This document shows positions 42,521 through 60,613 of a stretch of DNA of 64,000 nt, piece by piece. The translations under genes were made by a program, and so were the position numbers. The stretch covers positions 1-64,000 of the forward strand of contig NZ_JACKZC010000003.1 of NCBI RefSeq assembly GCF_014212495.1. The letters are read 5' to 3'. The notes below the pieces were generated by a model, which searched no databases, was not told the DNA's origin, and saw only the letters and a list, made by a program, of their open reading frames with translations. The DNA comes from Pontibacter sp. Tf4. GTDB lineage: Bacteria > Bacteroidota > Bacteroidia > Cytophagales > Hymenobacteraceae. Each line of letters opens with the position of its first letter. Position 1 is the first letter of the stretch.

Positions 42521-43759
42521 ATGTCAAATTGGAAATCATATAAACTAGGCGACTTCGCAGATGTGCAAACTGGCCCCTTCGGAAGCCAGTTGCATGCTTC
42601 TGACTATGTAGAAACAGGTATACCTTCTATTATGCCTGTGAACATAGTTGACCACAAAATCGAAGAAGCAGGTATTGCAAGAATCAAAGCGGAAGACGCT
42701 GAAAGGCTAAACAAATATTTAGTTGCTACAGGAGATATAGTTTTTAGCAGGAGGGGAGAAATTCATAGAAGAGCACTCATTACTGAAAAGGAAAAAGGTT
42801 GGCTTTGTGGTACGGGTTGTCTTCGAGCCCGGCTCAGAAGTATAGATGAAGTTGATCCACAGTTTTTATACTTCTACTTAGGTATAGATGAAGTTCGCGA
42901 CTGGTTATATGGTCATGCCGTTGGTACTTCAATGCCAAATTTGAACTCAGGTATACTTTCAAATTTACCTATAGAACTTCCCGATCTACCCACCCAACGC
43001 CGCATAGCCGAAATCTTATCTGCGCTGGATGACAAAATAGAGCTGAACCGCCGCATGAACCAAACTCTGGAGCAAATGGCGCAAACACTCTTTCGGCAGT
43101 ATTTTGTTGATGGTATAGATGAAGAGAATCTGCCGGAGGGATGGGAAAAATGTGAGTTTGGAGACTTTATTTCTTCAGTTTCTATAACTCATAAGTTTCC
43201 TAAACCACAGATTATATTCCTTAATACAGGAGATATTTTAAATGGTGATGTACTACATCGAAACTATAGTAATGTAAGAACACTACCAGGCCAGGCAAAG
43301 AAAAGCATACAGAAGAAAGATATTCTTTTCACCGAGATAAGACCCGCAAATAAACGCTTCGCTTATATAAACTTTGAGGCGAGTGATTATGTAGTTTCTA
43401 CTAAGCTAATGGTGTTAAGAGCCAAAGCTGATCTAGATTCACTCTTCTTCTATTTTTTACTGACACGCGATGAGACACTAAAGGAATTACAGAATCAAGC
43501 TGAGGCAAGATCTGGTACTTTCCCACAGATTACTTTCGATCAGGTTAAGATTTTGACTTTCAACAAACCTAATGATGATTCTCTTCACAATTTTATAGAG
43601 AATACCCTTACTCCTACTTATCAGAAAATTTTCAAAAATAAGGAGGAGATAACCACGCTTACCACCCTCCGCGACACCCTCCTTCCCAAACTCATGTCGG
43701 GAGAAATTGATGTAATGCAAATCAAACCGGAAGAGCTGCATGAGCCAGTATTTAGCTGA
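42521..43759 (+). CDS. hsdS: Type I restriction-modification specificity subunit HsdS
   Basis: A 412-residue specificity subunit with two target-recognition domains. TRD1 (about 1-165) begins WKSYKLGDFADVQTGPFGS. The first conserved spacer helix contains LPTQRRIAEILSALDDKIELN (about 160-180). TRD2 (about 205-365) starts with WEKCEFGDFISS, and a second helix (ITTLTTLRDTLLPKLMSGEI) closes the protein. It defines the recognition sequence of the HsdMS and HsdRMS complexes. The start is 5 bp after the KAP gene. The end overlaps hsdR by 20 bp. The TRD regions are A/T-rich and the spacer region is more G/C-rich, as usual after TRD exchange. Confidence 0.95.
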   Translation: MSNWKSYKLGDFADVQTGPFGSQLHASDYVETGIPSIMPVNIVDHKIEEAGIARIKAEDAERLNKYLVATGDIVFSRRGEIHRRALITEKEKGWLCGTGCLRARLRSIDEVDPQFLYFYLGIDEVRDWLYGHAVGTSMPNLNSGILSNLPIELPDLPTQRRIAEILSALDDKIELNRRMNQTLEQMAQTLFRQYFVDGIDEENLPEGWEKCEFGDFISSVSITHKFPKPQIIFLNTGDILNGDVLHRNYSNVRTLPGQAKKSIQKKDILFTEIRPANKRFAYINFEASDYVVSTKLMVLRAKADLDSLFFYFLLTRDETLKELQNQAEARSGTFPQITFDQVKILTFNKPNDDSLHNFIENTLTPTYQKIFKNKEEITTLTTLRDTLLPKLMSGEIDVMQIKPEELHEPVFS

Positions 43760-46700: not shown

Positions 46701-46988
46701 GGACTAACCGAAGAGGAAGAAGCCTTCTATGAGATCCTGGCCAAGCACCCCAACGCCGTACAGGACTTCGACCTGATCAAAGAACTGGTACAAAAGATTT
46801 TGGCCCAGGTAAAGAAAAGCGCCTCCCAACCCGACTGGTACAAGAAAGACGACACCAAAGCCCAGCTGCAACTGGCCGTAAAGCAAGTACTTCGCTTTAA
46901 AGTAAAAGCCGAGCTGCAGGAGATTCTGGATGAGATCATGGAGCAGGCTGAGGCCAGGTACAAAGAGTATGATATGAGTGTGGCATAA
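43740..46988 (+). CDS. hsdR: Type I restriction endonuclease subunit HsdR
   Basis: A 1082-residue restriction subunit. The N-terminal nuclease domain has the PD-ExK motif, with D137 in RIPDLIIF and E151/K153 in LFEFKN. The SF2 translocase part has HTTRSGKS (291-298), the DECH box (401-404), FTGTPVDS and the later motif GFDNPAM. The C-terminal part is helical. A 175-bp palindromic mini-element (45909-46083) adds a low-complexity linker at about residues 724-782 without breaking the frame. The start codon lies inside hsdS (20-bp overlap). The gene is full length and likely active. Confidence 0.95.
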   Translation: MSQYLAESDIEAAAIDWLREQEPYTYQHGSEIKRDLSKAVLEDVFEAFLRRRYPQVPPKVLAELKQEFLYNSGADLHQRNHAFHLKLSKGISKTWKDDLGKQHFGHFYPIAYEDVHQNEFWVVNQFTIIGKSKRIPDLIIFVNGLPLVLFEFKNLFSQDATVEAAYNQVQHYTYQIPQLFEYNALTVVSDGQTTLHGMYNSGLEWFAAWKSIDGREVVGNGFALETLIKGLLVPERLLQYVRHYIFHELDKGQLIKKGAKYHQFFGIQYALQQTLQSVKPYGDGRIGVVWHTTRSGKSITMAIYTGILRQLPELKNPTIVVQVDRFDLNRQLFDDFVAAKDLVGDVSIANTTDELRSLLSGDSGGVVFSTVQKFNLKDTATGRELEHPVLSTRDNIIVIADECHRTQYGLVQGFANNLRRALPQASFIGFTGTPVDSKDADTVAVFGDIIHTYDIRQATEDKAVVPIYYEPRLAKLHLGNEQLEEEAEEITGGLEENEKNRILWAAMEDAAGAKERVAAIARDILQHYTSRTKNLEGKAMIVCMSRRNCVKLYDALTALDGCPEVAVIMTTNIAKDPIEWNEHVRSKEQMEGIKARFKNPDDELKLVIVRDMWLTGFDNPAMHTLYVDKVMSGHNLIQAVNRVATVFRDKPSGLIVDYIGIGDRLRDATKKYTSAGGEGKVAFDVEEAFELARETVAQLREMLPGGPVTVQYGKSNGSRAMDNVETKYFASPIAAEDPGTFTTKRSTGKAAEGKDQFGNGSPAPSGKGHSGTIETQSIASLHEAIPYFSALSKGEKLKLVQHAVNHLVADDELCKAFMLNEKKLSHLAPIIKSHESINELAADIVYLQHVGAAVRKAKNPDRNIKKAATQVKDLIHRSIVSEDVVDVFQMAGIERFDISIINDDFLATAKEQKTGNELKLELLRQIMNDEIKVRSAKNLVKYRKLKEEVEKIIADYHNHFFDSLVAMEKLREVAKHMQEEDERRNQLGLTEEEEAFYEILAKHPNAVQDFDLIKELVQKILAQVKKSASQPDWYKKDDTKAQLQLAVKQVLRFKVKAELQEILDEIMEQAEARYKEYDMSVA
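45909..46083. mobile_element. In-frame MITE-like palindromic insertion in hsdR
   Basis: The two ends are 25-bp inverted copies of one another with a single difference: the left end (45909-45933) starts GTAGAGACGAAATAC and ends TTTGCGTCTC, and the right end (46059-46083) is its reverse complement apart from one base. Each end is itself a hairpin, GAGACG...CGTCTC, with GAGACGCAA AGTA TTGCGTCTC on the right. The 125 bp between the ends encode a low-complexity linker rich in Gly, Lys, Thr and Ser. Similar GTAGAGACGC palindromes are familiar as dispersed repeats in Bacteroidota and cyanobacteria. No clear target duplication was seen. Confidence 0.75.
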
Positions 46989-49263: not shown

Positions 49264-49308
49264 TGTAACCAATGTCACTGAACCGGGGCAACCTACACTC
49301 CATCTTTG
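49264..49308 (+). promoter_or_regulatory. Crp/Fnr-type site and -7 box before the methyltransferase gene
   Basis: The site TGTAACCAATGTCACTG (49264-49280) resembles the dyad TGTGAC-N4-GTCACA in its right half and weakly in its left. The -7 box CATCTTTG (49301-49308) lies at the same distance from the dyad as in five other promoters of this region. Confidence 0.6.
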
Positions 49309-49328
49309 TATCAATCATCTTAACAAGC

Positions 49329-49940
49329 ATGACTATGAAAGACTTTTGGAACGAACGCTACAGCCAGGAACAAATGGTATACGGTGCTGAACCTAACGAA
49401 TTTTTCAGGGAACAACTTCAACTCCTACAGCCCGGAACACTACTGTTACCTGCCGAAGGTGAAGGCAGAAATGCCGTGTATGCGGCACTGAAAGGCTGGC
49501 GGGTTACAGCGTTTGATTTTAGTGAAGCAGGTTCTAAAAAGGCCACAGCCCTGGCAGAACAGCGCGGCATAACTATAAACTACCAGGTAGCAGATGCGAT
49601 GCACTTTGAATGTGAGCCTGAAAGCCAGGATGCGGTAGCACTGATCTATGCTCACTTCTCGCCTGAACTGCGACAGCTACTACATCAGAAAGTGATTAAG
49701 TGGCTAAAACCAGGCGGCACAGTTATAATGGAGGCTTTCCACCCAAACCAATTAAGCTATAGTTCTGGGGGGCCAAAAGATGAAAGCATGCTCTATACTG
49801 CAGACATGCTAGAAGCAGACTTTAACCAGTTAGAGATTCAACTACTGGTTGAAGCCGAAATACAGCTAAATGAAGGTACTTATCATAGCGGAACAGGCTA
49901 TGTAACCAGGATGGTAGCTCAAAAGAAGCATAGTAAATAA
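49329..49940 (+). CDS. SAM-dependent methyltransferase (TehB-like)
   Basis: A class I methyltransferase of about 200 residues. It starts with MTMKDFWNERYSQEQMVYG, and the SAM-binding region is GTLLLPAEGEGRNAVYAALKG, WRVTAFDFSEAGSKKA and INYQVADAMHF. The pattern resembles thiopurine/TehB-type methyltransferases, which make volatile or methylated sulfur, selenium or tellurium products, but the substrate cannot be read from sequence. The start at 49329 is preferred: an upstream in-frame ATG at 49272 would lie before the predicted transcription start. Met 49335 is a second option. It has the Crp/Fnr-type promoter site and leads a likely operon with the stress protein. Confidence 0.88.
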   Translation: MTMKDFWNERYSQEQMVYGAEPNEFFREQLQLLQPGTLLLPAEGEGRNAVYAALKGWRVTAFDFSEAGSKKATALAEQRGITINYQVADAMHFECEPESQDAVALIYAHFSPELRQLLHQKVIKWLKPGGTVIMEAFHPNQLSYSSGGPKDESMLYTADMLEADFNQLEIQLLVEAEIQLNEGTYHSGTGYVTRMVAQKKHSK

Positions 49941-49984
49941 TAGAACATAAAAACTAGATCATAAAGGCTAACAGCTATACTCAA

Positions 49985-50827
49985 ATGAAAGATACATTAA
50001 ACATCATGGTACCGGTTGACTTTACACCGGTTTCTTACAGAGCAATAGAATTCCTGGCTTTCCTGATGGATAAGACACCCATTACTACGCACCTGGTGCA
50101 TGTAATAGAAGTGAACTCCGCTGAATGGGCGGGTTCTGTAGATGCATCGGAAACAGTAAACAAAAGTGAACTAAAGCAAAAGCAGGAATTAGCTAATCAG
50201 AAATTCGCAGAGCTGAAACAGCATGTTGATTTTAGCTTTACCAGCGAAGTACTATTTGGTGGTTTGACTACAGTGCTCGCCGACTATGCCAATACCAAAA
50301 ACATTGACCTGGTGATCATGGGTACGGACGGCGCTGCTGGCTGGCTGGAGAAAGTGTCTGGCTCTGAAGCGCAGCATGTGGTGCGTTATACCAACATTCC
50401 GGTCATCACCATCCATACGCATGCAGCCATTACCCCTATCCAGAACCTGCTATGGGTGGCGGATTTTGAAGCAGAAAAGCAACCAGAGCAAAGTGTGGCA
50501 ACTATAAAAATGCTGCAGCAACTTTTTAATGCCAGGCTGCACCTGTTGCAGATCGTAGATAAAGAAGATGAAAACAGGTTACACCAACTGAAAGGGAAAA
50601 TGGAGGATTTTGCGGAGCAGCTTAACCTGCAAAACTATGAACTGCACCTGCACCACAACTATAAGGTTCCGGCGGGTGTGCGCAGCTTTAACGAAGTATC
50701 TGAAATGGACCTGGTGCTGATCGGTACGCATGGCAGAAAAGGCATCAGCCACCTGTTCTATGGCAGTATCGCCGAAACACTGGTGAACCACTGCATCCGC
50801 CCTTTACTAACCTATCATCTTAACTAA
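49985..50827 (+). CDS. Tandem universal stress protein (UspA family)
   Basis: A 280-residue protein made of two Usp domains. The first (about 1-147) begins NIMVPVDFTPVSYRAIEFLA and has DLVIMGTDGAAGWLEKVSGS with the ATP-loop-like GxxG/S pattern. The second (about 155-280) ends DLVLIGTHGRKGISHLFYGSI with the same pattern, G-TH-GRKG-GS. Tandem Usp proteins are typical of Bacteroidota and are induced under energy or redox stress. It is 44 bp downstream of the methyltransferase gene and 56 bp ahead of the porin gene. Confidence 0.93.
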   Translation: MKDTLNIMVPVDFTPVSYRAIEFLAFLMDKTPITTHLVHVIEVNSAEWAGSVDASETVNKSELKQKQELANQKFAELKQHVDFSFTSEVLFGGLTTVLADYANTKNIDLVIMGTDGAAGWLEKVSGSEAQHVVRYTNIPVITIHTHAAITPIQNLLWVADFEAEKQPEQSVATIKMLQQLFNARLHLLQIVDKEDENRLHQLKGKMEDFAEQLNLQNYELHLHHNYKVPAGVRSFNEVSEMDLVLIGTHGRKGISHLFYGSIAETLVNHCIRPLLTYHLN

Positions 50828-50883
50828 TATCCTTTCTCCTCTGTGTGCGGCTCAGGCTGCACATCGTTTTTACACCAAACACC

Positions 50884-52281
50884 ATGCGTAATACATTTAA
50901 ACTGGCGGCTATACTTGCTGCCAGCATGGGCTGGGGTACGGCCTCTGCCCAAAAACATCACGAAGCCCATCAACCAGATACTGTACAGGTAAACAATGTA
51001 CAAGAACTTTTTACAAAAGGCTCAGTGCACGGGCATGTACGCAATTATTTTATGGCTACCTGGAGCCACCGCGAACTATCTGATAACTATGCCAATGCCA
51101 TCGGTGCCGAAATAGCCTATAAGACAGCTCCCTTCTATGGTTTCAGAGTTGGCTTTGCCGGGTTGTTTACCTACAACCTGTTCTCATCGGGCATGGCACA
51201 CCAGGATCCTTTAACAGGTAAACACCCGAAGCTGGAACTGGAGCTTTTTGATGTAGAAGACCCGGGAAACAAAGCCGACCTGGACCGGCTGGACGAACTA
51301 TACCTGGAGTACAAAACAGATTGGCTGCACGCAAAAGCTGGGCGTTTCAGCTTTACTTCTCCCCTGATGAACCCGCAGGATACCCGCATGAAGCCTTACT
51401 CTTTTCAGGGTATCAGTTTTCAGTTTCCTGTACAGGAAAAAGCGCTACTGACACTTGCCTGGTTTGATCATTTCTCACCCAGAAGTACCGTAGAATGGTT
51501 TAAAGCTGGTGAGTCCATCGGTACTTTCCCTTCTGGATATGATATGCAAGGCAATCGATCAGGTTATGCCCACCATACTGAAACCAAAGGCGTTGCCGTA
51601 ACGGGTCTACAGCTTAACTCAGATCAATCCCATCATGGCATTAACGCAGAAGTATGGAACTACTGGATAGAGAACATATCTAACACCAGCTACGGCCGGA
51701 CAACAATAGAAATTGTACCGCAAGTAAAAGCAGGTATAGAAGGTCTGTACCAGGTGCAGACAGGCAACGGTGGCAACCCGGAAGAAGCGCATGCCTACTT
51801 CCCGGATCAGCAACAATGGCTGGTAGGTGGTCAGTTAGCATACGAGCCCGGAAGTTGGAACACATCACTTAATTACCTGCACATAGATGGGGACGGGCGC
51901 TTCCTGTTTCCGCGTGAATGGGGCCGCGAGCAGTTCTTCGCCACTCTCTCCAGGGGCAGAATGGAAGGCACAGGTAAATCAGGCTTACTTGTGGCAAAAG
52001 TAAAAAAACGCTGGTCAGATAGGTTATCTATAGAGGCAGCTGCTTCCAAAACCTGGTTGCCTGGCGTGGATAACTATACACATAATAAGTATGGAGCAGT
52101 ACCATACATTGGATGGCTAGCTGACATTAACTATAGCCCTGCCAAACCAGTGCTCAAAGGATTGAACTTTCGGTTGCTTTATGTAGGTAGAACATCTCCG
52201 GATACAGACCTTCCGCTAGAAGCGATGTATTATAAAACCAACTTCCATAACCTGAACTTTGTAACACAGTTAAACTTTTGA
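50884..52281 (+). CDS. OprD-like outer membrane porin
   Basis: An outer-membrane beta-barrel protein of about 465 residues. A signal peptide (FKLAAILAASMGWGTASAQ) follows the start at 50884, which is preferred over the upstream in-frame ATG at 50845. The mature part has alternating beta-strand patterns. The segment HAKAGRFSFTSPLMNPQDTR followed by MKPYSFQGISF resembles the OprD-family core. The chain ends with LNFVTQLNF, a typical C-terminal Phe signal for outer-membrane insertion. It could import small anions or sulfonates for this sulfur region, but the substrate is unknown. Confidence 0.8.
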   Translation: MRNTFKLAAILAASMGWGTASAQKHHEAHQPDTVQVNNVQELFTKGSVHGHVRNYFMATWSHRELSDNYANAIGAEIAYKTAPFYGFRVGFAGLFTYNLFSSGMAHQDPLTGKHPKLELELFDVEDPGNKADLDRLDELYLEYKTDWLHAKAGRFSFTSPLMNPQDTRMKPYSFQGISFQFPVQEKALLTLAWFDHFSPRSTVEWFKAGESIGTFPSGYDMQGNRSGYAHHTETKGVAVTGLQLNSDQSHHGINAEVWNYWIENISNTSYGRTTIEIVPQVKAGIEGLYQVQTGNGGNPEEAHAYFPDQQQWLVGGQLAYEPGSWNTSLNYLHIDGDGRFLFPREWGREQFFATLSRGRMEGTGKSGLLVAKVKKRWSDRLSIEAAASKTWLPGVDNYTHNKYGAVPYIGWLADINYSPAKPVLKGLNFRLLYVGRTSPDTDLPLEAMYYKTNFHNLNFVTQLNF

Positions 52282-52340
52282 TCTCAGCCTGTGTGCCAAA
52301 ATCTGATAATTACATCTGGTAAATACAGTGCTATTCTTTG

Positions 52341-52385
52341 TGTGACAAACATCACTGAACATGGCTTTCGTATACTTTAATTTTG
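52341..52385 (+). promoter_or_regulatory. Crp/Fnr-type site and -7 box of the first MBL-rhodanese gene
   Basis: TGTGACAAACATCACTG (52341-52357) is a TGTGA-N6-TCACt dyad. TAATTTTG (52378-52385) is an exact -7 box at the same distance from the dyad centre as in the other five sites. Confidence 0.75.
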
Positions 52386-52424
52386 TATCAGAAAGTTTGG
52401 TCAACTATAAAACAGCAAAGATCT

Positions 52425-53768
52425 ATGAAAATTAAACAGTTTGAAGACAAGGGCTTAGCCCACTATGCATACGCTATCCTGAGCGAAAGCACAAAGGAAG
52501 TAATACTGATTGACCCGGCCCGCGACCCGCAGCCATACTATGATTACGCCAAAGAACACGACGCAAAAATTGTAGGTGTAATTGAAACGCACCCACATGC
52601 TGATTTTGTAAGCTCGCACTTGGAGATACACCAGAAAACCGGCGCCACTATTTACACGCATAGTATGGTCGGTGCCGATTATCCGCACCAGGCATTTGAT
52701 GAGGGTGCCGAGCTGCAATTAGGAGAAGTTAAACTGAAGTCGCTGCACACACCAGGCCACTCCCCTGACGGCATCAGCATTGTGCTGGAGCATGAAGGAA
52801 AAGACAAGGCCGTGTTCACTGGAGATACCTTGTTTATAGGTGATGTAGGTCGTCCGGATTTGCGCGAGAGTGCCGGTAACGTAACCGCTAAGCGTGAAGA
52901 GCTGGCCCGCCAGATGTATAAAAGTACACGCGAAAAGCTGATGAAGCTGGCCGACGATGTGGTAGTGTATCCGGCGCACGGTGCTGGCTCGCTGTGCGGT
53001 AAAGGCCTGAGCGATGCCAACAGCAGCACCATTGGCGACGAGAAGCTGGGTAACTACGCCCTGAAGCCGATGAGCGAAGACGAGTTTGTAAAGGTGCTGA
53101 CCGAAGACCAACCTTTTGTACCAAAATACTTTGGCTACGATGTAGGCCTTAACAAACAGGGCGCGCCAGATTATAAACCAAGTGTGGAAGGTGTGGCAAA
53201 ACTGGAGAAGAACTATACCCCGGAAGATGGCGCTGTAATAGTAGATGCTCGCTCAGAAAAGGTGTTCAAGCAAGGTCACTATAAAGGTGCGATCAACATA
53301 CAGAATGGCGGTAAGTTTGAAACATGGCTGGGATCTATAGTTGGCCCTAATGAAAGTTATTACCTAATAGGTGAAAGCGACGAACAGCTAAATGAGCTGA
53401 TCGCTAAGGCTTCCAAGATCGGGTATGAGCTGCTGATAAAAGGGGCTTTTGTATACGACAAGCAGGACGGCGAAACGAGCGATAGCTTTGACAGATCAGC
53501 TTTTGAAGCCAACAAAGAAGACTATACCATCGTGGACATCCGCAACACCTCAGAAGTAAAGTCGGGTAAATTCTTTGAAAAGGCCATCAACATTCCACTG
53601 CCGGAACTGCGCGAACGCGTGAAGGAGATTCCAACTGACAAACCAGTAGTTGTGCATTGCGCCGGTGGTTATCGCTCAGCAGCAGGTAGCAGCATCGTAG
53701 AGTCAGCCCTACCCAATATAAAGGTGCTGGACATGAGTGAAGCAGTTACAGAACTTAAAAATAAATAG
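52425..53768 (+). CDS. MBL-fold persulfide dioxygenase-like protein with two rhodanese domains
   Basis: A protein of 447 residues with three parts. The metallo-beta-lactamase domain (about 1-230) shows THPHADFVSSH, HTPGHSPD, GDTLFIGDVGRPDL and YPAHGAGSLCGK, the motifs of persulfide dioxygenase (ETHE1/Blh type). The first rhodanese domain (about 255-345) has no catalytic Cys: the loop reads YYLIGESDE. The second (about 365-447) has VVVHCAGGYRS with the active Cys. Such fusions oxidise or transfer sulfane sulfur. The start at 52425 (MKIKQFEDKG) is chosen because an upstream ATG at 52383 lies at the transcription start. A paralogue is at 57607-59019. Confidence 0.92.
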   Translation: MKIKQFEDKGLAHYAYAILSESTKEVILIDPARDPQPYYDYAKEHDAKIVGVIETHPHADFVSSHLEIHQKTGATIYTHSMVGADYPHQAFDEGAELQLGEVKLKSLHTPGHSPDGISIVLEHEGKDKAVFTGDTLFIGDVGRPDLRESAGNVTAKREELARQMYKSTREKLMKLADDVVVYPAHGAGSLCGKGLSDANSSTIGDEKLGNYALKPMSEDEFVKVLTEDQPFVPKYFGYDVGLNKQGAPDYKPSVEGVAKLEKNYTPEDGAVIVDARSEKVFKQGHYKGAINIQNGGKFETWLGSIVGPNESYYLIGESDEQLNELIAKASKIGYELLIKGAFVYDKQDGETSDSFDRSAFEANKEDYTIVDIRNTSEVKSGKFFEKAINIPLPELRERVKEIPTDKPVVVHCAGGYRSAAGSSIVESALPNIKVLDMSEAVTELKNK

Positions 53769-53777
53769 AAACAAACA

Positions 53778-53802
53778 GGAGACCTTGAGCATACGGGTCT
53801 CC
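53778..53802 (+). repeat. Short hairpin between the MBL and rhodanese genes
   Basis: GGAGACC (53778-53784) pairs with GGTCTCC (53796-53802). Without a T run it is more likely an mRNA-stabilising or processing hairpin than a terminator. Confidence 0.4.
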
Positions 53803-53824
53803 GCTTACCTTAACTATAACGACC

Positions 53825-54136
53825 ATGAACTATAAAGACATATCCGGAGAAGAGCTGAAAAAGCTAAAGGAAGAACAGCCAGATGCCGTTGTGGTGGACG
53901 TTCGTACCCCAATGGAAGTTAGCCAGGGTAAAATACCAGGCGCACAGGTAATAGACCTGATGGATGCCCAGTTTCCGCAAAAGGTAGATGCTTTGGACAA
54001 AGACAAACCCTATGTGCTTTACTGCAGATCGGGCAATAGAAGTGCCCAGGCCTGCAACTACATGGCGGGACAAGGATTTACAAAACTATATAACCTGAGT
54101 GGTGGCATCGGTAACTGGCCTTATGAAACTGAATAA
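53825..54136 (+). CDS. Single-domain rhodanese
   Basis: A 103-residue rhodanese with AVVVDVRTPMEV, IPGAQVIDLMD and the active-site loop YCRSGNRSAQAC, with the catalytic Cys in the first position. It ends with LYNLSGGIGNWP, the standard closing motif. It transfers sulfane sulfur within the cytoplasm. It is 56 bp after the MBL-double-rhodanese gene and overlaps the next small gene by 14 bp, so all three are one operon. Confidence 0.96.
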   Translation: MNYKDISGEELKKLKEEQPDAVVVDVRTPMEVSQGKIPGAQVIDLMDAQFPQKVDALDKDKPYVLYCRSGNRSAQACNYMAGQGFTKLYNLSGGIGNWPYETE

Positions 54137-54323
54137 TCTGTCGCTTAGTACCGGAACAAAGCTGGTGTTGAGCATGACTATCGGGGGTATTTTAGGTTAT
54201 ATGATTTATGCCTTTTATGGTTGTAACGGTAGCTGCCTAATTACTTCCAGCCCCCTTAACAGCACGATTTACGGAACAGTAGCAGGTGCTATCTTTTCCA
54301 GAAGATTTATAGCTAAGAAGTAA
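54123..54323 (+). CDS. DUF6132-like small membrane protein
   Basis: A protein of 66 residues with two hydrophobic helices. It has the pattern YGCNGSCLITSSPLNSTIYG, with a Cys pair between the helices, typical of small Bacteroidota membrane proteins (DUF6132). The start at 54123 overlaps the rhodanese stop in another frame. A longer start at 54099 is less likely. The Cys pair and the operon with the rhodanese suggest a role in sulfur or thiol transfer at the membrane. Confidence 0.8.
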   Translation: MKLNNLSLSTGTKLVLSMTIGGILGYMIYAFYGCNGSCLITSSPLNSTIYGTVAGAIFSRRFIAKK

Positions 54324-54332
54324 AGAACTATA

Positions 54333-54374
54333 AGCAACTGCCTGTACCAACATAGTACAGGCAGTTGCTATTTT
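54333..54374 (+). terminator. Strong intrinsic terminator after the sulfur operon
   Basis: AGCAACTGCCTGTAC (54333-54347) and GTACAGGCAGTTGCT (54355-54369) form a perfect 15-bp stem, followed by ATTTTA. Confidence 0.9.
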
Positions 54375-54418
54375 ACAAGGATGCCAGCAGCTTTTAACAT
54401 TGTATTACCTTACTTGTT

Positions 54419-54463
54419 TGTGACTAAAATCACATACAACTATACCTTAAAATATTTCCTTTG
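54419..54463 (+). promoter_or_regulatory. Crp/Fnr-type site and -7 box of the trxB operon
   Basis: TGTGACTAAAATCACAT (54419-54435) is a TGTGA-N6-TCACA dyad. The -7-like box TTCCTTTG (54456-54463) is at the same distance as in the other sites. The operon it precedes contains the Crp/Fnr gene itself, so regulation may be autogenous. Confidence 0.75.
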
Positions 54464-54567
54464 TGTAGTTCTAACAGCTCTTATAGTTAAGCTGTTATCA
54501 TACATTACATTTGTCAAAATCCCTTAAGACCTGAAAGTGTCGGTCTTATGACATAAATAAATTTCTT

Positions 54568-55557
54568 ATGGAAACCGAAAAAGTAAAAGTTCTGATCATT
54601 GGTTCTGGCCCAGCAGGCTACACAGCTGCGATATATGCATCCAGAGCCGGACTTAATCCGGTATTATATCAGGGTCTTCAACCAGGTGGCCAGCTAACCA
54701 TTACCAACGATGTAGAGAACTACCCAGGTTACCCGGATGGCATCAATGGTCCGCAGATGATGGAAGATTTTAAACACCAGGCAGAGCGCTTTGGCACCGA
54801 TGTGCGCTATGGTATTGCTACCGCTGTTGATTTCTCATTTAAACCACACAAAGTAACTATTGATGATCAGAAGGTTCTTGAAGCAGATACCGTCATCATT
54901 TCTACCGGGGCATCAGCTAAATGGCTTGGATTGGAGTCGGAAGCACGACTGAACGGTAGTGGCGTTTCTGCCTGTGCCGTATGCGACGGCTTCTTCTACC
55001 GTGGGCAGGATGTAGCTATAGTTGGTGCCGGTGATACGGCCGCAGAAGAAGCTACCTACCTGGCCAACCTGGCAAACAAAGTATATATGATTGTGCGCCG
55101 CGATGAGATGCGTGCCTCCCAGATCATGCAGGACCGGGTAAAAAGAACGAAGAACATAGAGATCCTGTGGAATACGGTTACAGACGAGATTCTGGGCGAG
55201 CAGGCTGTGGAAGGAATCAGGGTAAAGAACACCGTTACTAACGAAATGAGGGAGATACCGGTGAAAGGTTTTTTTGTCGCCATTGGCCACAAACCGAACT
55301 CCGACATATTTGCCGATTACCTGAACCTGGATGAGAATGGCTATATCCGAACGATACCAGGGACATCAAAGACAAATATAGACGGTGTGTTTGCCTGTGG
55401 CGATGTACAGGATTTCACGTACCGCCAGGCGGTTACTGCCGCTGGCTCAGGTTGTATGGCGGCGCTGGATGCCGAGCGTTACCTGGCAGCTCTGGAATCG
55501 GAGCATGCTACAGAACCAGAGCAGGACACAATACTTAGCTTAACTGACAAAGCATGA
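54568..55557 (+). CDS. trxB: Thioredoxin-disulfide reductase
   Basis: A 329-residue NADPH-dependent flavoprotein. The FAD motif GSGPAG is at 12-17, the redox-active CAVC at 136-139 within SACAVCDGFFYRG, and the NADPH motif GAGDTAAE at 153-160. The C-terminal FAD-binding stretch GVFACGDVQDFTYRQAVTAAGSG is also present. It reduces thioredoxin-like partners. Here it leads an operon with a small Cys-rich membrane protein (4-bp overlap) and the Crp/Fnr gene, and has the shared Crp/Fnr-type promoter, which ties it to the sulfur response. Confidence 0.95.
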   Translation: METEKVKVLIIGSGPAGYTAAIYASRAGLNPVLYQGLQPGGQLTITNDVENYPGYPDGINGPQMMEDFKHQAERFGTDVRYGIATAVDFSFKPHKVTIDDQKVLEADTVIISTGASAKWLGLESEARLNGSGVSACAVCDGFFYRGQDVAIVGAGDTAAEEATYLANLANKVYMIVRRDEMRASQIMQDRVKRTKNIEILWNTVTDEILGEQAVEGIRVKNTVTNEMREIPVKGFFVAIGHKPNSDIFADYLNLDENGYIRTIPGTSKTNIDGVFACGDVQDFTYRQAVTAAGSGCMAALDAERYLAALESEHATEPEQDTILSLTDKA

Positions 55558-55793
55558 TAAAAACTCTAAAGTATCAACTACTAACCGGCTGGCACCTGGC
55601 CCGCTGGATTCGTCTGGTACTTGGCGTAGCCCTGCTGATACAGGCTATCGCGAAAAGCGATGTACTGGTTGGTGCATTTGCCATTTTGCTTTTAGGGCAA
55701 GTCGTTACAAATACAGGCTGTTGCGGCCCATCGGGCTGCAGTGTACCACAACCAAAACAACACACAAAAGATACCACCGGACCTATTGAATAG
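55554..55793 (+). CDS. Small Cys-rich membrane protein
   Basis: A 79-residue protein with a basic N-terminus (LKYQLLTGWHLARWIRL), two short hydrophobic helices (about 19-33 and 38-50) and a Cys-rich C-terminal part, TGCCGPSGCSVP. The layout is like the DUF2892/YgaP-type membrane proteins, with the cysteines exposed near the membrane surface. Its start overlaps the trxB stop (ATGA), so it is translationally coupled and may be a reduction partner of the thioredoxin system or a metal/sulfur carrier. Confidence 0.7.
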   Translation: MIKTLKYQLLTGWHLARWIRLVLGVALLIQAIAKSDVLVGAFAILLLGQVVTNTGCCGPSGCSVPQPKQHTKDTTGPIE

Positions 55794-55814
55794 GGAAAAC
55801 GTAAAGGATAAAAC

Positions 55815-56462
55815 ATGGAAAGTAAAAATAAAGAAGAGTTACTGCAGAAGTTCTCACAGTTAGAGCAGCCATTGCTGGATGAGATACTAGCCCAAAGCAC
55901 CATTAGACACCTGAAAGAAGGTGACGAAGCTTTACGGACAGGCCAATATATCAAATCAACCGTGCTGCTTTCTAAAGGCTTACTGAAAGTGTATCGCGAA
56001 GACGAAAATGGTAATGAGTTTTTAATGTATTACCTGGAACCAGGGAATGCCTGCGCCCTTTCCATGATGTGTACCGCACGTGATGAACAGAGCCAGATCA
56101 TGGTAAAAGCAGTGGATGAATCGGAGATTATCCTGATACCGTCGCACCTGTCAGAACTATGGCTTGCCAAGTATAAAAGCTGGCACAACTTTGTAATTGC
56201 TTCGTACCGCCAACGCTTTGAAGAACTCTTGCAAACACTGGATAGCGTAGCATTTAAAGCCTTGGATGAGCGTCTTTTGTTTTACCTGAAACGCCATGTA
56301 AAAGTAAGCGGAAATGAAGTAAAATTATCGCATCAGCAGATTGCAAACGAGCTCAGCAGTTCCCGCGAAGTAATCTCCAGGCTGCTGAAAAAGTTAGAGC
56401 AAACCGGTGCTATCACGCTTCATCGCAATTATATAGAAGTACATGACCTGGATATAGTTTAA
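55815..56462 (+). CDS. Crp/Fnr-family transcriptional regulator
   Basis: A 215-residue regulator. The N-terminal cyclic-nucleotide-binding-like beta-roll (about 20-120) lacks the typical cAMP-contacting set. It contains two cysteines, C80 and C86, in GNACALSMMCTARDEQ. The C-terminal winged HTH has LSHQQIANELSSSREVISRL (171-190), with the Ser-Ser-Arg-Glu recognition helix of the Crp/Fnr group. Six dyads of the Crp type occur in this region, one of them before its own operon, so it is the obvious candidate to bind them. The signal may be the C80/C86 thiol state, for example sulfide or persulfide, but that is inferred. Confidence 0.9.
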   Translation: MESKNKEELLQKFSQLEQPLLDEILAQSTIRHLKEGDEALRTGQYIKSTVLLSKGLLKVYREDENGNEFLMYYLEPGNACALSMMCTARDEQSQIMVKAVDESEIILIPSHLSELWLAKYKSWHNFVIASYRQRFEELLQTLDSVAFKALDERLLFYLKRHVKVSGNEVKLSHQQIANELSSSREVISRLLKKLEQTGAITLHRNYIEVHDLDIV

Positions 56463-56477
56463 CTAGAAACACAAGAT

Positions 56478-56516
56478 AAAGGCGACCTGACAAATCATCA
56501 GGTCGCCTTTATTTTT
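56478..56516 (+). terminator. Intrinsic terminator after the Crp/Fnr gene
   Basis: AAAGGCGACCTGA (56478-56490) and TCAGGTCGCCTTT (56498-56510) form a perfect 13-bp stem, followed by ATTTTT. Confidence 0.92.
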
Positions 56517-56541
56517 AGCCTTTTTAAGTTATTTTCCCTTC

Positions 56542-56586
56542 TGTGACATCAGTCACTGTACTCCCTTCTGCTCCACCCTACCTTTG
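56542..56586 (+). promoter_or_regulatory. Crp/Fnr-type site and -7 box before the TauE/SafE gene
   Basis: TGTGACATCAGTCACTG (56542-56558) is a TGTGAC-N4-GTCACt dyad. TACCTTTG (56579-56586) is an exact -7 box at the shared distance. Confidence 0.8.
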
Positions 56587-56617
56587 TACCAGAAATCAAG
56601 ATAAAACTTTTAATAAA

Positions 56618-57481
56618 ATGGAAATACTTGGATACATCGCTGCTATGCTTATTGGTTTATCACTTGGCCTGATCGGGGGTGGCGGCTCTATTCTTACTGT
56701 ACCGGTGCTGGTTTATTTGCTGGGCCTAAGCCCGGTTATTTCAACAGCTTACTCCCTGTTTATAGTTGGGCTTACCAGTTTAGTGGGGTCATATAAATTT
56801 TACCAGAAAGGCTTGGTGAGCTTGAAAACAGCTGTTGTGTTTGGCTTGCCATCTATAGTGGCTGTATACCTGACGCGGCGCTACCTGGTGCCCGCCATTC
56901 CTGAAAATTTATTCACAGTAGGAGATCTGGCCATAACGAAAGGCGTGCTGCTGATGCTCTTGTTTGCCGGCTTGATGGTGTTTGCTTCGATCTCTATGAT
57001 CAAAAAGAAAAAAGATGCACCGGCAGAACCAGCTGATGTAGTAGATGAGAACATTGACACCGAACTGGATGTGGAGCACACTGATCCAAAAGAAACGCAC
57101 CCGAAGCCAAAGTTTAACTATGGCGGCATACTGGCTGAAGGACTGGTAGTAGGTACATTGACTGGTCTGGTAGGTGCAGGCGGTGGCTTCCTGATCATTC
57201 CGGCGCTGGTGCTCTTCAGTAAGCTGGATATGAAAATGGCCGTAGGTACATCGCTACTCATCATCGCTGTTAAATCGCTGTTCGGATTTATAGGTGATGT
57301 GTTCAACTATGAGATTGACTGGATGTTCCTGGGTATTTTCTCAGCCATTTCTATAGCCGGTATCTTCATCGGATCCTTCCTTTCCACAAAAATACATGCC
57401 GACAAGCTAAAGACTTCCTTCGGTTGGTTTGTACTCGTGATGGGCATTTACATCATCATCAAAGAAATATTTTTCGCATAA
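56618..57481 (+). CDS. TauE/SafE family sulfite/organosulfonate exporter
   Basis: A membrane protein of 287 residues with about eight helices in two halves. The glycine-rich motifs LIGLSLGLIGGGGSILTVPV and GLVVGTLTGLVGAGGGFLII are the paired TauE/SafE signatures. An acidic, probably cytoplasmic loop (about 128-160) separates the halves. The start at 56618 is chosen: the longer frame from 56543 would start upstream of the predicted transcription start. Export of sulfite or related anions fits the persulfide-dioxygenase genes nearby, because that enzyme makes sulfite. It has the shared Crp/Fnr-type promoter. Confidence 0.93.
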   Translation: MEILGYIAAMLIGLSLGLIGGGGSILTVPVLVYLLGLSPVISTAYSLFIVGLTSLVGSYKFYQKGLVSLKTAVVFGLPSIVAVYLTRRYLVPAIPENLFTVGDLAITKGVLLMLLFAGLMVFASISMIKKKKDAPAEPADVVDENIDTELDVEHTDPKETHPKPKFNYGGILAEGLVVGTLTGLVGAGGGFLIIPALVLFSKLDMKMAVGTSLLIIAVKSLFGFIGDVFNYEIDWMFLGIFSAISIAGIFIGSFLSTKIHADKLKTSFGWFVLVMGIYIIIKEIFFA

Positions 57482-57490
57482 GCCTGGCAG

Positions 57491-57535
57491 CGTGACCAAA
57501 GTCACAGACTCTGGCTATTCTTATCCCGAAATTTG
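57491..57535 (+). promoter_or_regulatory. Crp/Fnr-type site and -7 box of the second MBL-rhodanese gene
   Basis: CGTGACCAAAGTCACAG (57491-57507) is a near-perfect GTGAC-N4-GTCAC dyad. The -7-like box GAAATTTG (57528-57535) is at the shared distance. Confidence 0.8.
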
Positions 57536-57606
57536 TAATGTCACCAAGGTAAAAGGGTGACTAAAATTGAGAAACTAAAAAAACAAAAACTATAAAATCA
57601 GCTACC

Positions 57607-59019
57607 ATGAAAGTAGAACAGATCTATACCGGTTGCCTGGCACAAGGCGCTTATTACATTGAAAGCAACGGCGAAGCCGCCATCATTGACCCGTTACGTG
57701 AAGTAAAACCATACCTGGAGAAAGCAGAAAAAGACAACGCCACGATCAAGTATGTATTGGAGACACACTTCCATGCGGACTTCGTTTCAGGCCACGTGGA
57801 TCTGGCGAAGGCATCAGGCGCTACTATTGTTTTCGGACCAAATGCCCAGACTACTTATGACGCCTACATCGCGAAAGATGGTGAAGAACTGAAAGTAGGT
57901 GATGTCACTATAAAAGTGCTTCACACCCCAGGCCATACCATGGAATCTACCACGTATTTACTAATAGATGAGAATGGCAAAGACTATGCGCTTTTCTCTG
58001 GTGATACCTTGTTTATCGGTGATGTGGGTCGTCCGGACCTTGCTGCAAAATCTGACTTAACACAAGATCAGCTGGCTGGTCACCTGTACGACTCGCTGCG
58101 CAATAAGATCATGACGTTGGCGGATGACGTGATTGTATACCCGGCACACGGTGCTGGCTCTGCCTGCGGAAAGAATATGAGCAAGGAAACAAGCGATACA
58201 TTGGGTAATCAGAAAAAAACAAACTACGCCCTTCGTGCCGACATGACCAAAGAAGAGTTCATCAAGGAAGTAACAGATGGCTTAACACCGCCGCCGAGCT
58301 ATTTCCCGCTGAACGTAATGATGAACAAGGAGGGTTACGACAACATTGAAAGCGTACTGGAGCAAGGTTTACAGGCCCTATCGCCGGAAGCTTTTGAAGC
58401 GGCAGCCAACGAAACCGGCGCCCTGGTACTGGATACGCGAAGCCCGGAAACATTTGCAACTGGTTTTATACCGAATGCTATCAATATTGGTATTGATGGT
58501 GGTTTCGCCCCATGGGTAGGCACGCTGATCCCAGACATCAAGCAGCAGATATTGCTGGTTACAGACGAAGGCCGTGAAGAAGAGGTAGTAACCCGTTTAG
58601 CACGCGTAGGCTACGATTATACCATCGGGTACCTGAAGGGTGGCATAGATGCCTGGAAACAGGCTGGCAAAGATGTAGACGCTATTAACTCTATATCAGC
58701 AGAGACATTTGCACAGCGTTTTGAGCAGGATAATACCATTAAAGTAGTAGACGTACGCAAACCAGGCGAGTTCCAGGCAGAGCATGTGGAGACAGCACAA
58801 AGTGCTCCATTGGATTATCTGAATGAGCACCTGGCCGAGCTGCCTAAAGAAGAAACCATGTACCTGCATTGCGCCGGGGGTTACCGCTCTATGATCGCAG
58901 CATCTATACTTAAAGCCAGGGGCTTTGAAAATGTGGTGAACGTGGCGGGTGGTTTTAAGGCTATTGCCGAGACCAGCGTACCGAAAACTGCTTTTGTTTG
59001 CCCAAGCACACTGAAGTAA
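57607..59019 (+). CDS. MBL-fold persulfide dioxygenase-like protein with two rhodanese domains (paralogue)
   Basis: A 470-residue relative of the 52425-53768 protein, with the same three-part layout. The metallo-beta-lactamase domain shows THFHADFVSGH, HTPGHTMES, GDTLFIGDVGRPDL and YPAHGAGSACGK. The first rhodanese domain again lacks the active Cys (LLVTDEGREEE). The second has MYLHCAGGYRS with it. The two proteins share the layout but have diverged over much of their length, so they probably have different substrates or partners. It has its own Crp/Fnr-type promoter and is followed by a terminator hairpin. Confidence 0.92.
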   Translation: MKVEQIYTGCLAQGAYYIESNGEAAIIDPLREVKPYLEKAEKDNATIKYVLETHFHADFVSGHVDLAKASGATIVFGPNAQTTYDAYIAKDGEELKVGDVTIKVLHTPGHTMESTTYLLIDENGKDYALFSGDTLFIGDVGRPDLAAKSDLTQDQLAGHLYDSLRNKIMTLADDVIVYPAHGAGSACGKNMSKETSDTLGNQKKTNYALRADMTKEEFIKEVTDGLTPPPSYFPLNVMMNKEGYDNIESVLEQGLQALSPEAFEAAANETGALVLDTRSPETFATGFIPNAINIGIDGGFAPWVGTLIPDIKQQILLVTDEGREEEVVTRLARVGYDYTIGYLKGGIDAWKQAGKDVDAINSISAETFAQRFEQDNTIKVVDVRKPGEFQAEHVETAQSAPLDYLNEHLAELPKEETMYLHCAGGYRSMIAASILKARGFENVVNVAGGFKAIAETSVPKTAFVCPSTLK

Positions 59020-59046
59020 TTTCTTATAGTTAAAGACGCTTGAAGC

Positions 59047-59073
59047 GCTGGCGTAGTGTGATGCTGCGCCAGC
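59047..59073 (+). terminator. Terminator hairpin after the second MBL-rhodanese gene
   Basis: GCTGGCGTAG (59047-59056) pairs with CTGCGCCAGC (59064-59073) with one mismatch, followed by CTTTGAGTTTTA. It is a weaker terminator than others in the region because the T run is broken. Confidence 0.65.
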
Positions 59074-59103
59074 CTTTGAGTTTTAGAGAACGTCTCTTCC
59101 CTG

Positions 59104-59148
59104 CGTGACCAAAGTCACAGACAAAGGCTTCTATTATACCGACCTTTG
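59104..59148 (+). promoter_or_regulatory. Crp/Fnr-type site and -7 box of the rhodanese-YeeE operon
   Basis: CGTGACCAAAGTCACAG (59104-59120) is identical to the site at 57491-57507. The -7-like box GACCTTTG (59141-59148) is at the shared distance. Confidence 0.8.
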
Positions 59149-59189: not shown

Positions 59190-59516
59190 ATGTTTAACAT
59201 ATTCGGATCAAAACCAAAGAACTACGAGAACCTGGACGGCACCACGTTCAGAACCAGGTATCAGAATGCTGCGAAAGCGGAGCTACTGGATGTACGTACA
59301 GCCGGTGAGTTTGCTGGTGGTTCTATTAAAGGCGCTAAGAATCTGGATGTAACATCGTCACAGTTCCAACAGGCGCTTAAAACGATGGACAAAAACAAAG
59401 AGTACTTCGTGTTCTGCCGCAGCGGCAACCGTAGCGGCTCTGCCTGCGACATCATGAGTAAAGAAGGCTTTAAGGCCTATAATCTGGCAGGTGGCATTGG
59501 TGCCTGGCCAAGATAA
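59190..59516 (+). CDS. Single-domain rhodanese
   Basis: A 108-residue rhodanese with AELLDVRTAGEFAGGSI, the active-site loop FCRSGNRSGSAC and the final YNLAGGIGAWP. It begins with a short non-rhodanese stretch (FNIFGSKPKNYENLDG). It is the first gene of an operon with two YeeE/YedE transporter genes, so it may hand sulfur to or receive it from the transporter. It has an identical Crp/Fnr-type promoter to the MBL-rhodanese gene upstream. Confidence 0.96.
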   Translation: MFNIFGSKPKNYENLDGTTFRTRYQNAAKAELLDVRTAGEFAGGSIKGAKNLDVTSSQFQQALKTMDKNKEYFVFCRSGNRSGSACDIMSKEGFKAYNLAGGIGAWPR

Positions 59517-59595: not shown

Positions 59596-60153
59596 ATGTT
59601 AGAATTTTTGAGCCAACCATGGCCGTGGTACACTTCGGGTATTGTTATCGCCTTTGTTATGGTACTGCTTCTGTTCTTTGGAAAATCATTTGGTGTGTCA
59701 GCCAACCTGCGTACCATCTGCTCAGCCTGTGGTGCAGGCAAAAATGTAAAGTTCTTTGACTTTGACTGGCGTTCCCAAACCTGGAATCTATTGTTCCTGG
59801 TCGGTGCCATATTAGGCGGCTTTATTGCATCAGAATTTCTTTCAACTGGCGAGGTGGTGCAGATTTCGCAGGCTACTATTCAAGATTTGAGTGCACTTGG
59901 TATATCTGCTCCGGATGACTTGCAGCCAGAAGAAATATTCAGCCTGGAGGCTGCTTTTACGCTGAAAGGTTTCCTGATTCTGTTGCTAGGCGGATTTGCC
60001 ATAGGGTTCGGAGCCCGTTATGCCGGGGGCTGCACTTCAGGCCACGCGATCAGTGGGTTATCTAACCTGCAGTTACCGTCACTTATTGCTGTAATCGGCT
60101 TCTTTATTGGTGGTCTGATCACTACCTGGATCTTGTTACCGCTCATTTTCTAA
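59596..60153 (+). CDS. YeeE/YedE family sulfur transporter, first half
   Basis: A 185-residue membrane protein with about four helices. The conserved Cys motifs are CSACGAG (about 41-47) and ARYAGGCTSGHAISGLSNL, where the GGCTSGH Cys is the thiosulfate-relaying type known from YeeE/TsuA proteins. It forms one half of a split transporter. The other half is the gene at 60200-60613. It would move thiosulfate or another sulfur compound across the inner membrane. It lies 79 bp after the rhodanese gene. Confidence 0.93.
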   Translation: MLEFLSQPWPWYTSGIVIAFVMVLLLFFGKSFGVSANLRTICSACGAGKNVKFFDFDWRSQTWNLLFLVGAILGGFIASEFLSTGEVVQISQATIQDLSALGISAPDDLQPEEIFSLEAAFTLKGFLILLLGGFAIGFGARYAGGCTSGHAISGLSNLQLPSLIAVIGFFIGGLITTWILLPLIF

Positions 60154-60199: not shown

Positions 60200-60613
60200 A
60201 TGAGAGGGTTAAAATTTATAATTGCCGGCATCTTGTTCGGCATCGTAATGAGTAAGTCGGAAGCCATATCGTGGTTCCGTATCCAGGAGATGTTCCGTTT
60301 TCAATCATTCCACATGTATGGCATCATCGGCACGGCCGTGGTGTTGGGGGTGATTATTACCTATGTGATCAAGAAGTATAAACTGCGTGATTACCAGGGT
60401 AACCCAATTACCTTTACACCGAAGGAAATGTCTGTTCCGCGCTACCTGATTGGTGGTACTATTTTCGGGTTAGGCTGGGCACTGACCGGTGCTTGTCCGG
60501 GACCGATGTTTGTGAACATCGGTTTTCAGTATTGGTCTATCCTGATAGCAGTAGTTGGGGCCATAGCCGGTACGTACCTGTACGGCGCTATAAAAGACAG
60601 ATTACCGCATTAA
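60200..60613 (+). CDS. YeeE/YedE family transporter, second half (DUF6691-like)
   Basis: A 137-residue membrane protein with about four helices. The pattern LIGGTIFGLGWALTGACPGP contains the conserved Cys of the YeeE/YedE group. Paired short YeeE/YedE proteins are common in Bacteroidota and together make one full-length transporter. It is 46 bp behind the first half on the same operon and is followed by a 12-bp hairpin terminator. Confidence 0.93.
   Translation: MRGLKFIIAGILFGIVMSKSEAISWFRIQEMFRFQSFHMYGIIGTAVVLGVIITYVIKKYKLRDYQGNPITFTPKEMSVPRYLIGGTIFGLGWALTGACPGPMFVNIGFQYWSILIAVVGAIAGTYLYGAIKDRLPH

Follow-up and report, generated by a model that had tools for sequence, protein, structure and literature searches.

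A Crp/Fnr-family protein encoded at position 55815 of the window, together with a close paralog, would activate a regulon of reactive-sulfur genes from class II dyads, and we consider this explanation, taken as a whole, to be likely. The window is the whole stretch analyzed here, 64,000 nucleotides of Pontibacter sp. Tf4 (contig NZ_JACKZC010000003.1, positions 1 to 64,000, assembly GCF_014212495.1), and forms part of the contig that we call C17 in a genome of 4.45 Mb. It holds the following six dyads, each with its -7 box.

49264 to 49279, + strand: dyad 1, TGTAACCAATGTCACT, with -7 box CATCTTTG at 49301-49308; precedes a methyltransferase, a universal stress protein and a 465-residue protein without Pfam match.
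52341 to 52356, + strand: dyad 2, TGTGACAAACATCACT, with -7 box TAATTTTG at 52378-52385; precedes the first protein with a metallo-beta-lactamase (MBL) and two rhodanese domains, and a rhodanese.
54419 to 54434, + strand: dyad 3, TGTGACTAAAATCACA, with -7 box TTCCTTTG at 54456-54463; precedes trxB, an open reading frame of 79 codons and the Crp/Fnr gene.
56542 to 56557, + strand: dyad 4, TGTGACATCAGTCACT, with -7 box TACCTTTG at 56579-56586; precedes a TauE/SafE gene.
57491 to 57506, + strand: dyad 5, CGTGACCAAAGTCACA, with -7 box GAAATTTG at 57528-57535; precedes the second MBL-rhodanese protein.
59104 to 59119, + strand: dyad 6, CGTGACCAAAGTCACA, with -7 box GACCTTTG at 59141-59148; precedes a rhodanese and two YeeE/YedE genes.

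A first-pass annotation of this DNA had placed dyads at 49264, 52341, 54419, 56542, 57491 and 59104, all at an identical distance from a -7 box, and both statements hold exactly. Counted from the first base of the dyad, the start of TTTG is at +41 in six cases out of six, and any other offset from -100 to +149 shows at most one TTTG. That such spacing cannot be chance was also a sound judgment: with a TTTG frequency of 0.0065, six matches at one preset offset have a probability of about 7.5e-14, a value that does not yet allow for the choice of offset. Some details needed correction. The site is 16 bp long rather than 17, and the announced form TGTGAC-N4-GTCACA is complete in none of the six; the core GTGAC-N4-GTCAC is perfect in three (56542, 57491 and 59104) and has one mismatch in the other three. 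The boxes all end in TTTG as described, but the exact TAnnTTTG is found only at 52378 and 56579, the TA being altered in the rest. Six promoters is moreover the count for the window only, since 11 places in the genome match the dyad together with TTTG (at +40 from its first G) with no more than one mismatch in all, ten of them on C17 (49265 to 132392) and one on contig C20. Within the window, dyads with at most one mismatch are exactly these six, whereas 60 order-3 Markov simulations averaged 0.58 and never exceeded 3. At two mismatches the dyad alone is not enriched in the window (18 versus 17.0 expected), and stricter matches were therefore used.

Perfect dyads occur nine times in the genome, versus 3 on each strand when the pattern is reversed as a control. 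Eight of them lie within 76 kb (C17:56543-132362), before sulfur-related genes, and the ninth, on C20, precedes a thioredoxin-like gene (Thioredoxin_9). Outside the window, the dyad at C17:68906 is followed by genes for a small protein that looks secreted and for one similar to SoxB (TIGR04486, 293 bits, below the cut-off of 550), and a perfect dyad at C17:71331 (locus L033:9332-9372) is located before a SoxA/TsdA-type cytochrome. Small proteins of 127-128 residues follow a dyad in two genera (L033:6996-7382 and L082:18317-18701); the one in L033 has no family match. The dyads at C17:128887, 131408 and 132349 are part of a near-duplicate of the sulfur cluster, about 72 kb away (C17:129005-135324, or L034:5006-11325). 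This second copy includes separate genes for CstB-like, TauE, rhodanese, YeeE and TlpA proteins and for a Crp/Fnr regulator that is 78% identical to the 55815 protein.

The geometry recurs both in the genome and in its relatives when GTGAC-N4-GTCAC with TTTG at the same distance is searched for, as the first-pass annotation had proposed. The regulator loci examined in other genomes, 29 in number, hold 13 dyads and 12 occurrences of TTTG at +40 (one dyad being counted in both directions). A larger set of 80 related loci (1.417 Mb) gave 140 occurrences of TTTG at +40 over 167 dyads, with 0-7 elsewhere between offsets 14 and 79; when the half-site was permuted (23 versions), the count at +40 never exceeded 2. 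These loci are not independent, because they come mostly from Pontibacter and Flavobacterium. At least one site with this geometry is present in 64 of the 80. Behind 113 of the 140 sites the first gene is a sulfur gene. First genes include those for CstB-like protein 2 (42), TauE (34), CstB-like protein 1 (16), rhodanese (15), methyltransferase (5) and others. As the loci surround the regulator, which is itself often among sulfur genes, the whole-genome result is less biased than these counts. The arrangement of dyad 3, before trxB, the 79-codon frame and the Crp/Fnr gene, recurs in locus L068, and several Pontibacter loci have a GTAAC-N4-GTCAC site before the same genes as dyad 1. In Flavobacterium, sites are also followed by an RND efflux operon, a TPMT-like methyltransferase and a protein resembling type III sulfide:quinone reductase (246 bits, below the cut-off of 525). 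Flavobacterium dyads also precede a first gene for 435-437 residues at L104:7929, L119:11923, L135:15329, L136:3175, L144:12688 and L147:6832; in L104 it encodes an OEP protein with HlyD next to it, in L136 the third gene is that of an RND pump, and the other four were likened by length only. Dyads before such OEP/HlyD/RND genes suggest the efflux of a sulfur or thiol compound.

The regulator family is present in 134 of 395 sampled Bacteroidota genomes (E-value 1e-25). A CstB-like protein at an E-value of 1e-150 or better occurs in 88 genomes, of which 76 have the regulator and 12 do not. We compared the best 29 CstB-like loci listed from other genomes, all of which have the regulator, with 14 regulator-free loci (those 12, and two with weaker CstB-like matches), chosen among the matches listed. 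A site with at most one mismatch lies within 1.5 kb in 17 of 29 loci with the regulator and in none of 14 without it (Fisher 1.5e-4; 22 of 29 versus 0 of 14 at two mismatches), a contrast that is partly confounded because the regulator-free genomes differ in ancestry, were chosen from listed matches and are regulator-free only at an E-value of 1e-25.

The genome encodes 11 proteins with a cNMP domain. Recognition helices could be read in ten of them, the eleventh having no helix-turn-helix. Only the 55815 protein, with the helix SREVISR (R184, E185, R189), and its 78% identical paralog carry the CRP signature R-E-x-x-x-R, and for this reason these two are very probably the regulator of the dyads. 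The other Crp-type proteins of the genome were considered as dyad regulators and rejected, as their helices are without this signature. The 55815 protein, 92% identical to a regulator of Pontibacter qinzhouensis, combines a cNMP-binding-like sensor domain with a Crp-type helix-turn-helix, as expected in the CRP/FNR superfamily. The site follows the helix in relatives, Glu185 being found with GTGAC and Val185 with GTAAC. The helix has R-E in 118 of 151 aligned regulators (in two of which Thr replaces Ser), and the other 33 have R-V. For sites near Glu185 regulators, the third letters of the half-sites are AG (99), GG (84), AA (1) and GT (1), with at least one G in 184 of 185; for those near Val185 regulators they are AA (15), AT (3), AG (1) and GT (1), without G in 18 of 20. 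In a thinned set of 71 rows with a call, G is present in 53 of 53 Glu rows and absent from 16 of 18 Val rows (Fisher 4.8e-14, with ancestry ignored). One contrast on the tree is between L213 and L214, which are sister rows: the former has Val and an AT site, the latter Glu and a GG site. Such co-variation of helix and dyad serves as a natural test that the regulator family reads these dyads, and the reading of GTGAC-N4-GTCAC by the family with Cys80 and Cys86 is strongly supported. Altered-specificity mutants exist for E. coli CRP; a literature search on the specificity of its Glu181 gave no relevant result. According to excerpts of Rodionov 2005 (PMC1274295), the DNA site in the Crp/Fnr superfamily correlates with residues 180 and 181.

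Promoter anatomy was obtained by aligning 139 distinct sites, which had been chosen for their dyad and TTTG. TG comes right after the dyad core, 20 bp lead to TAnnTTTG, the A of TA is kept in 97%, and TA follows TTTG. The -7 box is centred at -7 in Bacteroides promoters. This value puts the dyad centre at about -40.5 and TG in the -33 element, which is weak and for which the protein would compensate, like CRP at class II promoters. A site near -41 over the -33/-35 element is what defines class II, and the geometry predicts just that. Because the dyad centre overlaps a weak -33 element, class II activation of the CstB-like, rhodanese, TauE, YeeE and TrxB genes is implied. The regulator gene itself is located behind trxB and dyad 3, and positive feedback is therefore to be expected.

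Dyads of the Fnr type, ATGAC-N4-GTCAT, show the same geometry in 6 of 7 cases, the loci having been picked with a search pattern that includes this spacing. Constant geometry thus does not by itself define this regulon and seems to mark class II Crp/Fnr promoters generally in this genome. The ATGAC dyads probably represent a separate Fnr regulon with class II geometry. With TTTG at +40, they were seen in L034, L035, L036 and L038, some of them in the contig C12 region; those in L035 are near what by eye are cbb3-oxidase-like genes and an Fnr-like protein with an N-terminal cysteine group.

Several proposals of the first-pass annotation can be judged from these data. The class II position, about 41 bp before the predicted transcription start, agrees with the alignment, and the Crp/Fnr gene does lie inside one of the predicted regulon operons. 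A sulfur/thiol regulon with a candidate regulator finds support in the genome-wide specificity, the sites of relatives, the helix-dyad co-variation and the exclusion of the other cNMP-domain proteins. The 55815 protein was a good choice as regulator, but there are two closely related regulators, not one. The implication that constant geometry alone defines the regulon has to be dropped in view of the Fnr-type dyads. Family searches recovered the proposed targets downstream of the dyads, namely the methyltransferase-stress protein operon, both MBL-rhodanese genes, trxB-crp, TauE/SafE and rhodanese-YeeE/YedE. The genes of the window cluster are as follows.

49329 to 49940, + strand: class I methyltransferase, start at 49329 or 49335; Methyltransf_25 and Methyltransf_11 over cut-off, TPMT and TehB models below theirs.
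49985 to 50827, + strand: universal stress protein with two Usp stretches.
52425 to 53768, + strand: MBL-rhodanese-rhodanese protein 1 of CstB-like architecture; Lactamase_B and two Rhodanese stretches, PDB 3tp9 and 3r2u matching nearly the full length.
53825 to 54136, + strand: single-domain rhodanese, by family match.
54568 to 55557, + strand: thioredoxin reductase (TIGR01292, 398 bits, cut-off 343).
55554 to 55793, + strand: open reading frame of 79 codons between trxB and the regulator gene, without Pfam match.
55815 to 56462, + strand: Crp/Fnr-family regulator of 215 residues (Pfam HTH_Crp_2, Crp, cNMP_binding).
56618 to 57481, + strand: predicted exporter of the TauE/SafE family (PF01925, 155 bits).
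57607 to 59019, + strand: MBL-rhodanese-rhodanese protein 2 of CstB-like architecture (PDB 3tp9 4.8e-72, 3r2u 6.7e-60; NCBIfam matches all below cut-off).
59190 to 59516, + strand: single-domain rhodanese, by family match.
59596 to 60153, + strand: YeeE/YedE-type Sulf_transp half-transporter a (PF04143, 61 bits).
60200 to 60613, + strand: YeeE/YedE-type half-transporter b; weak YedE and TsuA matches, below cut-off.

CstB consists of an MBL domain followed by two rhodanese-like domains, and this order is predicted for both MBL proteins of the window. Elsewhere in the window, an open reading frame of 1082 codons (43740-46988) resembles, by eye, the HsdR subunit of type I restriction systems.

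Cys80 and Cys86 are the only cysteines of the 55815 protein. All 151 aligned regulators have Cys80, and 143 of them have Cys86. In an AlphaFold monomer model (mean pLDDT 87.6, pTM 0.64), Cys80 is placed just before a short helix, 81-89, and Cys86 inside it; by its position, this helix would correspond to the phosphate-binding cassette for cAMP. In CRP, cAMP is contacted by Glu72 and Arg82. These contacts are not kept, as the two residues fall on Ala and Glu in the profile alignment. The loss of the cAMP contacts and the conservation of the two cysteines make a thiol or persulfide switch plausible, and we regard its existence at Cys80/Cys86 as evenly balanced between true and false. The regulator has sulfur genes beside it in 25 of 28 Glu-clade loci, 22 of 27 Val-clade loci, 4 of 7 Glu/Cys-Cys loci and 2 of 7 loci of relatives without Cys86 (69 loci).

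The mechanism that we propose runs as follows. The 55815 protein and its paralog would bind GTGAC-N4-GTCAC as homodimers, centred about 40.5 bp before the transcription start. The bound dimer would overlap the weak -33 element (CACTGA) and, judging from its position, activate promoters of the TAnnTTTG type in the class II manner. The genes switched on would be those for CstB-like MBL-rhodanese proteins, rhodaneses, TauE/SafE, YeeE/YedE, thioredoxin reductase and SoxB/TsdA-like proteins, and, from the place of dyad 3, the regulator's own operon. In the least certain step, a persulfide or another oxidized sulfur species may modify Cys80/Cys86, at the place of cAMP in CRP, and turn the protein on.

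A number of observations weigh against this mechanism. The C20 dyad has CTTG in place of TTTG at the usual position, and the box behind C17:71331 is also CTTG (CTTGTA), one base closer than elsewhere; the latter site is possibly weaker or put to another use. Sites with this geometry are absent from 16 of the 80 related loci, and 12 of the 29 CstB-like loci in regulator-bearing genomes have none with at most one mismatch; the confounding of the regulator-free set, described above, also counts here. Independent helix-dyad switches on the tree amount to one pair on well supported branches and three on all branches. With so few pairs a sign test cannot be significant, and ancestry alone could explain the co-variation. 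A sulfide:quinone reductase resembling that of Flavobacterium was not found in the Tf4 genome with a query that had no positive control. Finally, Cys86 is missing in 8 of 151 regulators, and no sulfur gene lies within 1.5-2 kb of the regulator in 3 of 28 Glu-clade and 5 of 27 Val-clade loci.

The same regulon could respond to another signal, such as nitric oxide, oxidants or a heme ligand as for HcpR and PgRsp, with the sulfur genes serving damage control. Heme binding and activation by nitric oxide are indeed described for P. gingivalis HcpR in excerpts of the literature. Among 44 aligned sequences, however, no His or Met is invariant in the sensor domain, in which Cys80 is; hcp (PF03063) was not found in the Tf4 genome by a search that was positive in 5 of 14 control genomes; and the regulator has sulfur genes around it in the Glu and Val clades alike. 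We consider this other signal unlikely, though deserving attention. It is improbable, too, that the regulator acts as a repressor blocking the polymerase at -40.5 until released by sulfur species. The dyad does overlap the -33 element and the known persulfide sensor CstR is a repressor according to partial accounts, but the -33 element is degenerate (CACTGA) and seems to call for an activator. A spacing that stays fixed over 140 sites is moreover the mark of polymerase contact at class II promoters, as established for E. coli CRP, whereas a repressor site could sit anywhere over the promoter.

Two further explanations receive far less credit. Another Crp-type protein, the Fnr of contig C12 or a response-regulator fusion of C21, might be the real regulator, as the ATGAC-N4-GTCAT dyads, presumably theirs, have the same spacing and differ from GTGAC-N4-GTCAC only at the outer base. 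This is very improbable: the helices of these proteins, TAKETTIR and ASKETVIR, are without the Arg that contacts the outer G of the half-site in CRP, a contact given in excerpts of PMC1274295, and the sites follow the Cys80/Cys86 family across genomes and shift with its residue 185. That the dyads are likenesses due to chance or functionless relics of a cluster duplication is suggested by the two near-duplicate clusters and by the identity of dyads 5 and 6 over 16 bases. Spacer and flanks vary between sites, however, while dyad, TTTG and distance are constant, and sites with this geometry reach 64 of the 80 related loci, which leaves this explanation a negligible probability.

Control by persulfide or sulfide has been described in Staphylococcus and Proteobacteria, with repressors or a sigma-54 factor; among these regulators, BigR and SqrR control sulfide-handling genes in Proteobacteria. 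SqrR and BigR belong to the ArsR family and FisR is a sigma-54 factor, and they differ in this from the Crp/Fnr protein of Tf4. Our literature search found no such sulfur regulator or regulon in Bacteroidota, in a search that covered few subscription journals and for which 'Crp/Fnr' is a poor search term. What sets this putative Crp/Fnr regulon apart is its reactive-sulfur target set. Bacteroidota are a main phylum of soils, waters and guts, and these widespread bacteria of soil and water appear to switch on sulfur-detoxifying genes through one Crp/Fnr-type protein, whose conserved cysteines possibly sense reactive sulfur. One window holds the regulator, its DNA code, the promoter geometry and the targets, and the change of specificity from Glu to Val is a natural built-in control.

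The target set resembles that of S. aureus, where excerpts of PMC5480029 describe a cst operon with tauE, cstA, cstB (persulfide dioxygenase-sulfurtransferase) and sqr under the dithiol per-/polysulfide sensor CstR. In Tf4 the dyads and the regulator likewise lie beside CstB-like, rhodanese and TauE genes, as would be expected of a persulfide regulator. CstR is a repressor of the CsoR-like fold; Tf4 has instead a Crp/Fnr protein whose dyad is common to many operons and lies where an activator would bind, and the sign of regulation would be opposite if activation in Tf4 holds. Unlike in the cst operon, sqr was not found in the Tf4 genome (again with a query lacking a positive control).

With E. 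coli CRP the 55815 protein shares the dyad type (TGTGA-N6-TCACA), the helix residues (R180, E181 and R185 of CRP being R184, E185 and R189 here) and a centre near -41. It scores 52.4 bits versus the NCBIfam equivalog cut-off of 266, and it has cysteines in the stretch where CRP has its cAMP contacts. FNR was rejected as an identity, since its 4Fe-4S centre is bound by cysteines clustered at the N-terminus and the 55815 protein has only Cys80 and Cys86. A group of N-terminal cysteines does occur in a different protein, encoded on C12. HcpR and HcpR2 are likewise Crp/Fnr proteins without the FNR cysteine motif. The HcpR2 dyad GTAACnnnnGTTAC equals the Val-clade dyad (GTAAC), but in most species HcpR2 carries Pro at 181, and its target is hcp, according to excerpts of PMC1274295, in contrast to Glu or Val and sulfur genes here.

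The closest solved sequence (2e-31) is PDB 3dv8, which has Cys-x5-Cys at the same place and presumably comes from another phylum; its entry title, 'transcriptional regulator, Crp/Fnr family', names no function. We propose tentatively, rating it slightly short of an even chance, that a widespread reactive-sulfur sensor of Bacteroidota has arisen in which the Crp/Fnr cAMP pocket is rebuilt into a Cys-x5-Cys persulfide switch, activating rather than derepressing a CstB/TauE/YeeE/SoxB regulon. If this is true, the same motif in 3dv8 would point to a sensor class that crosses phyla.

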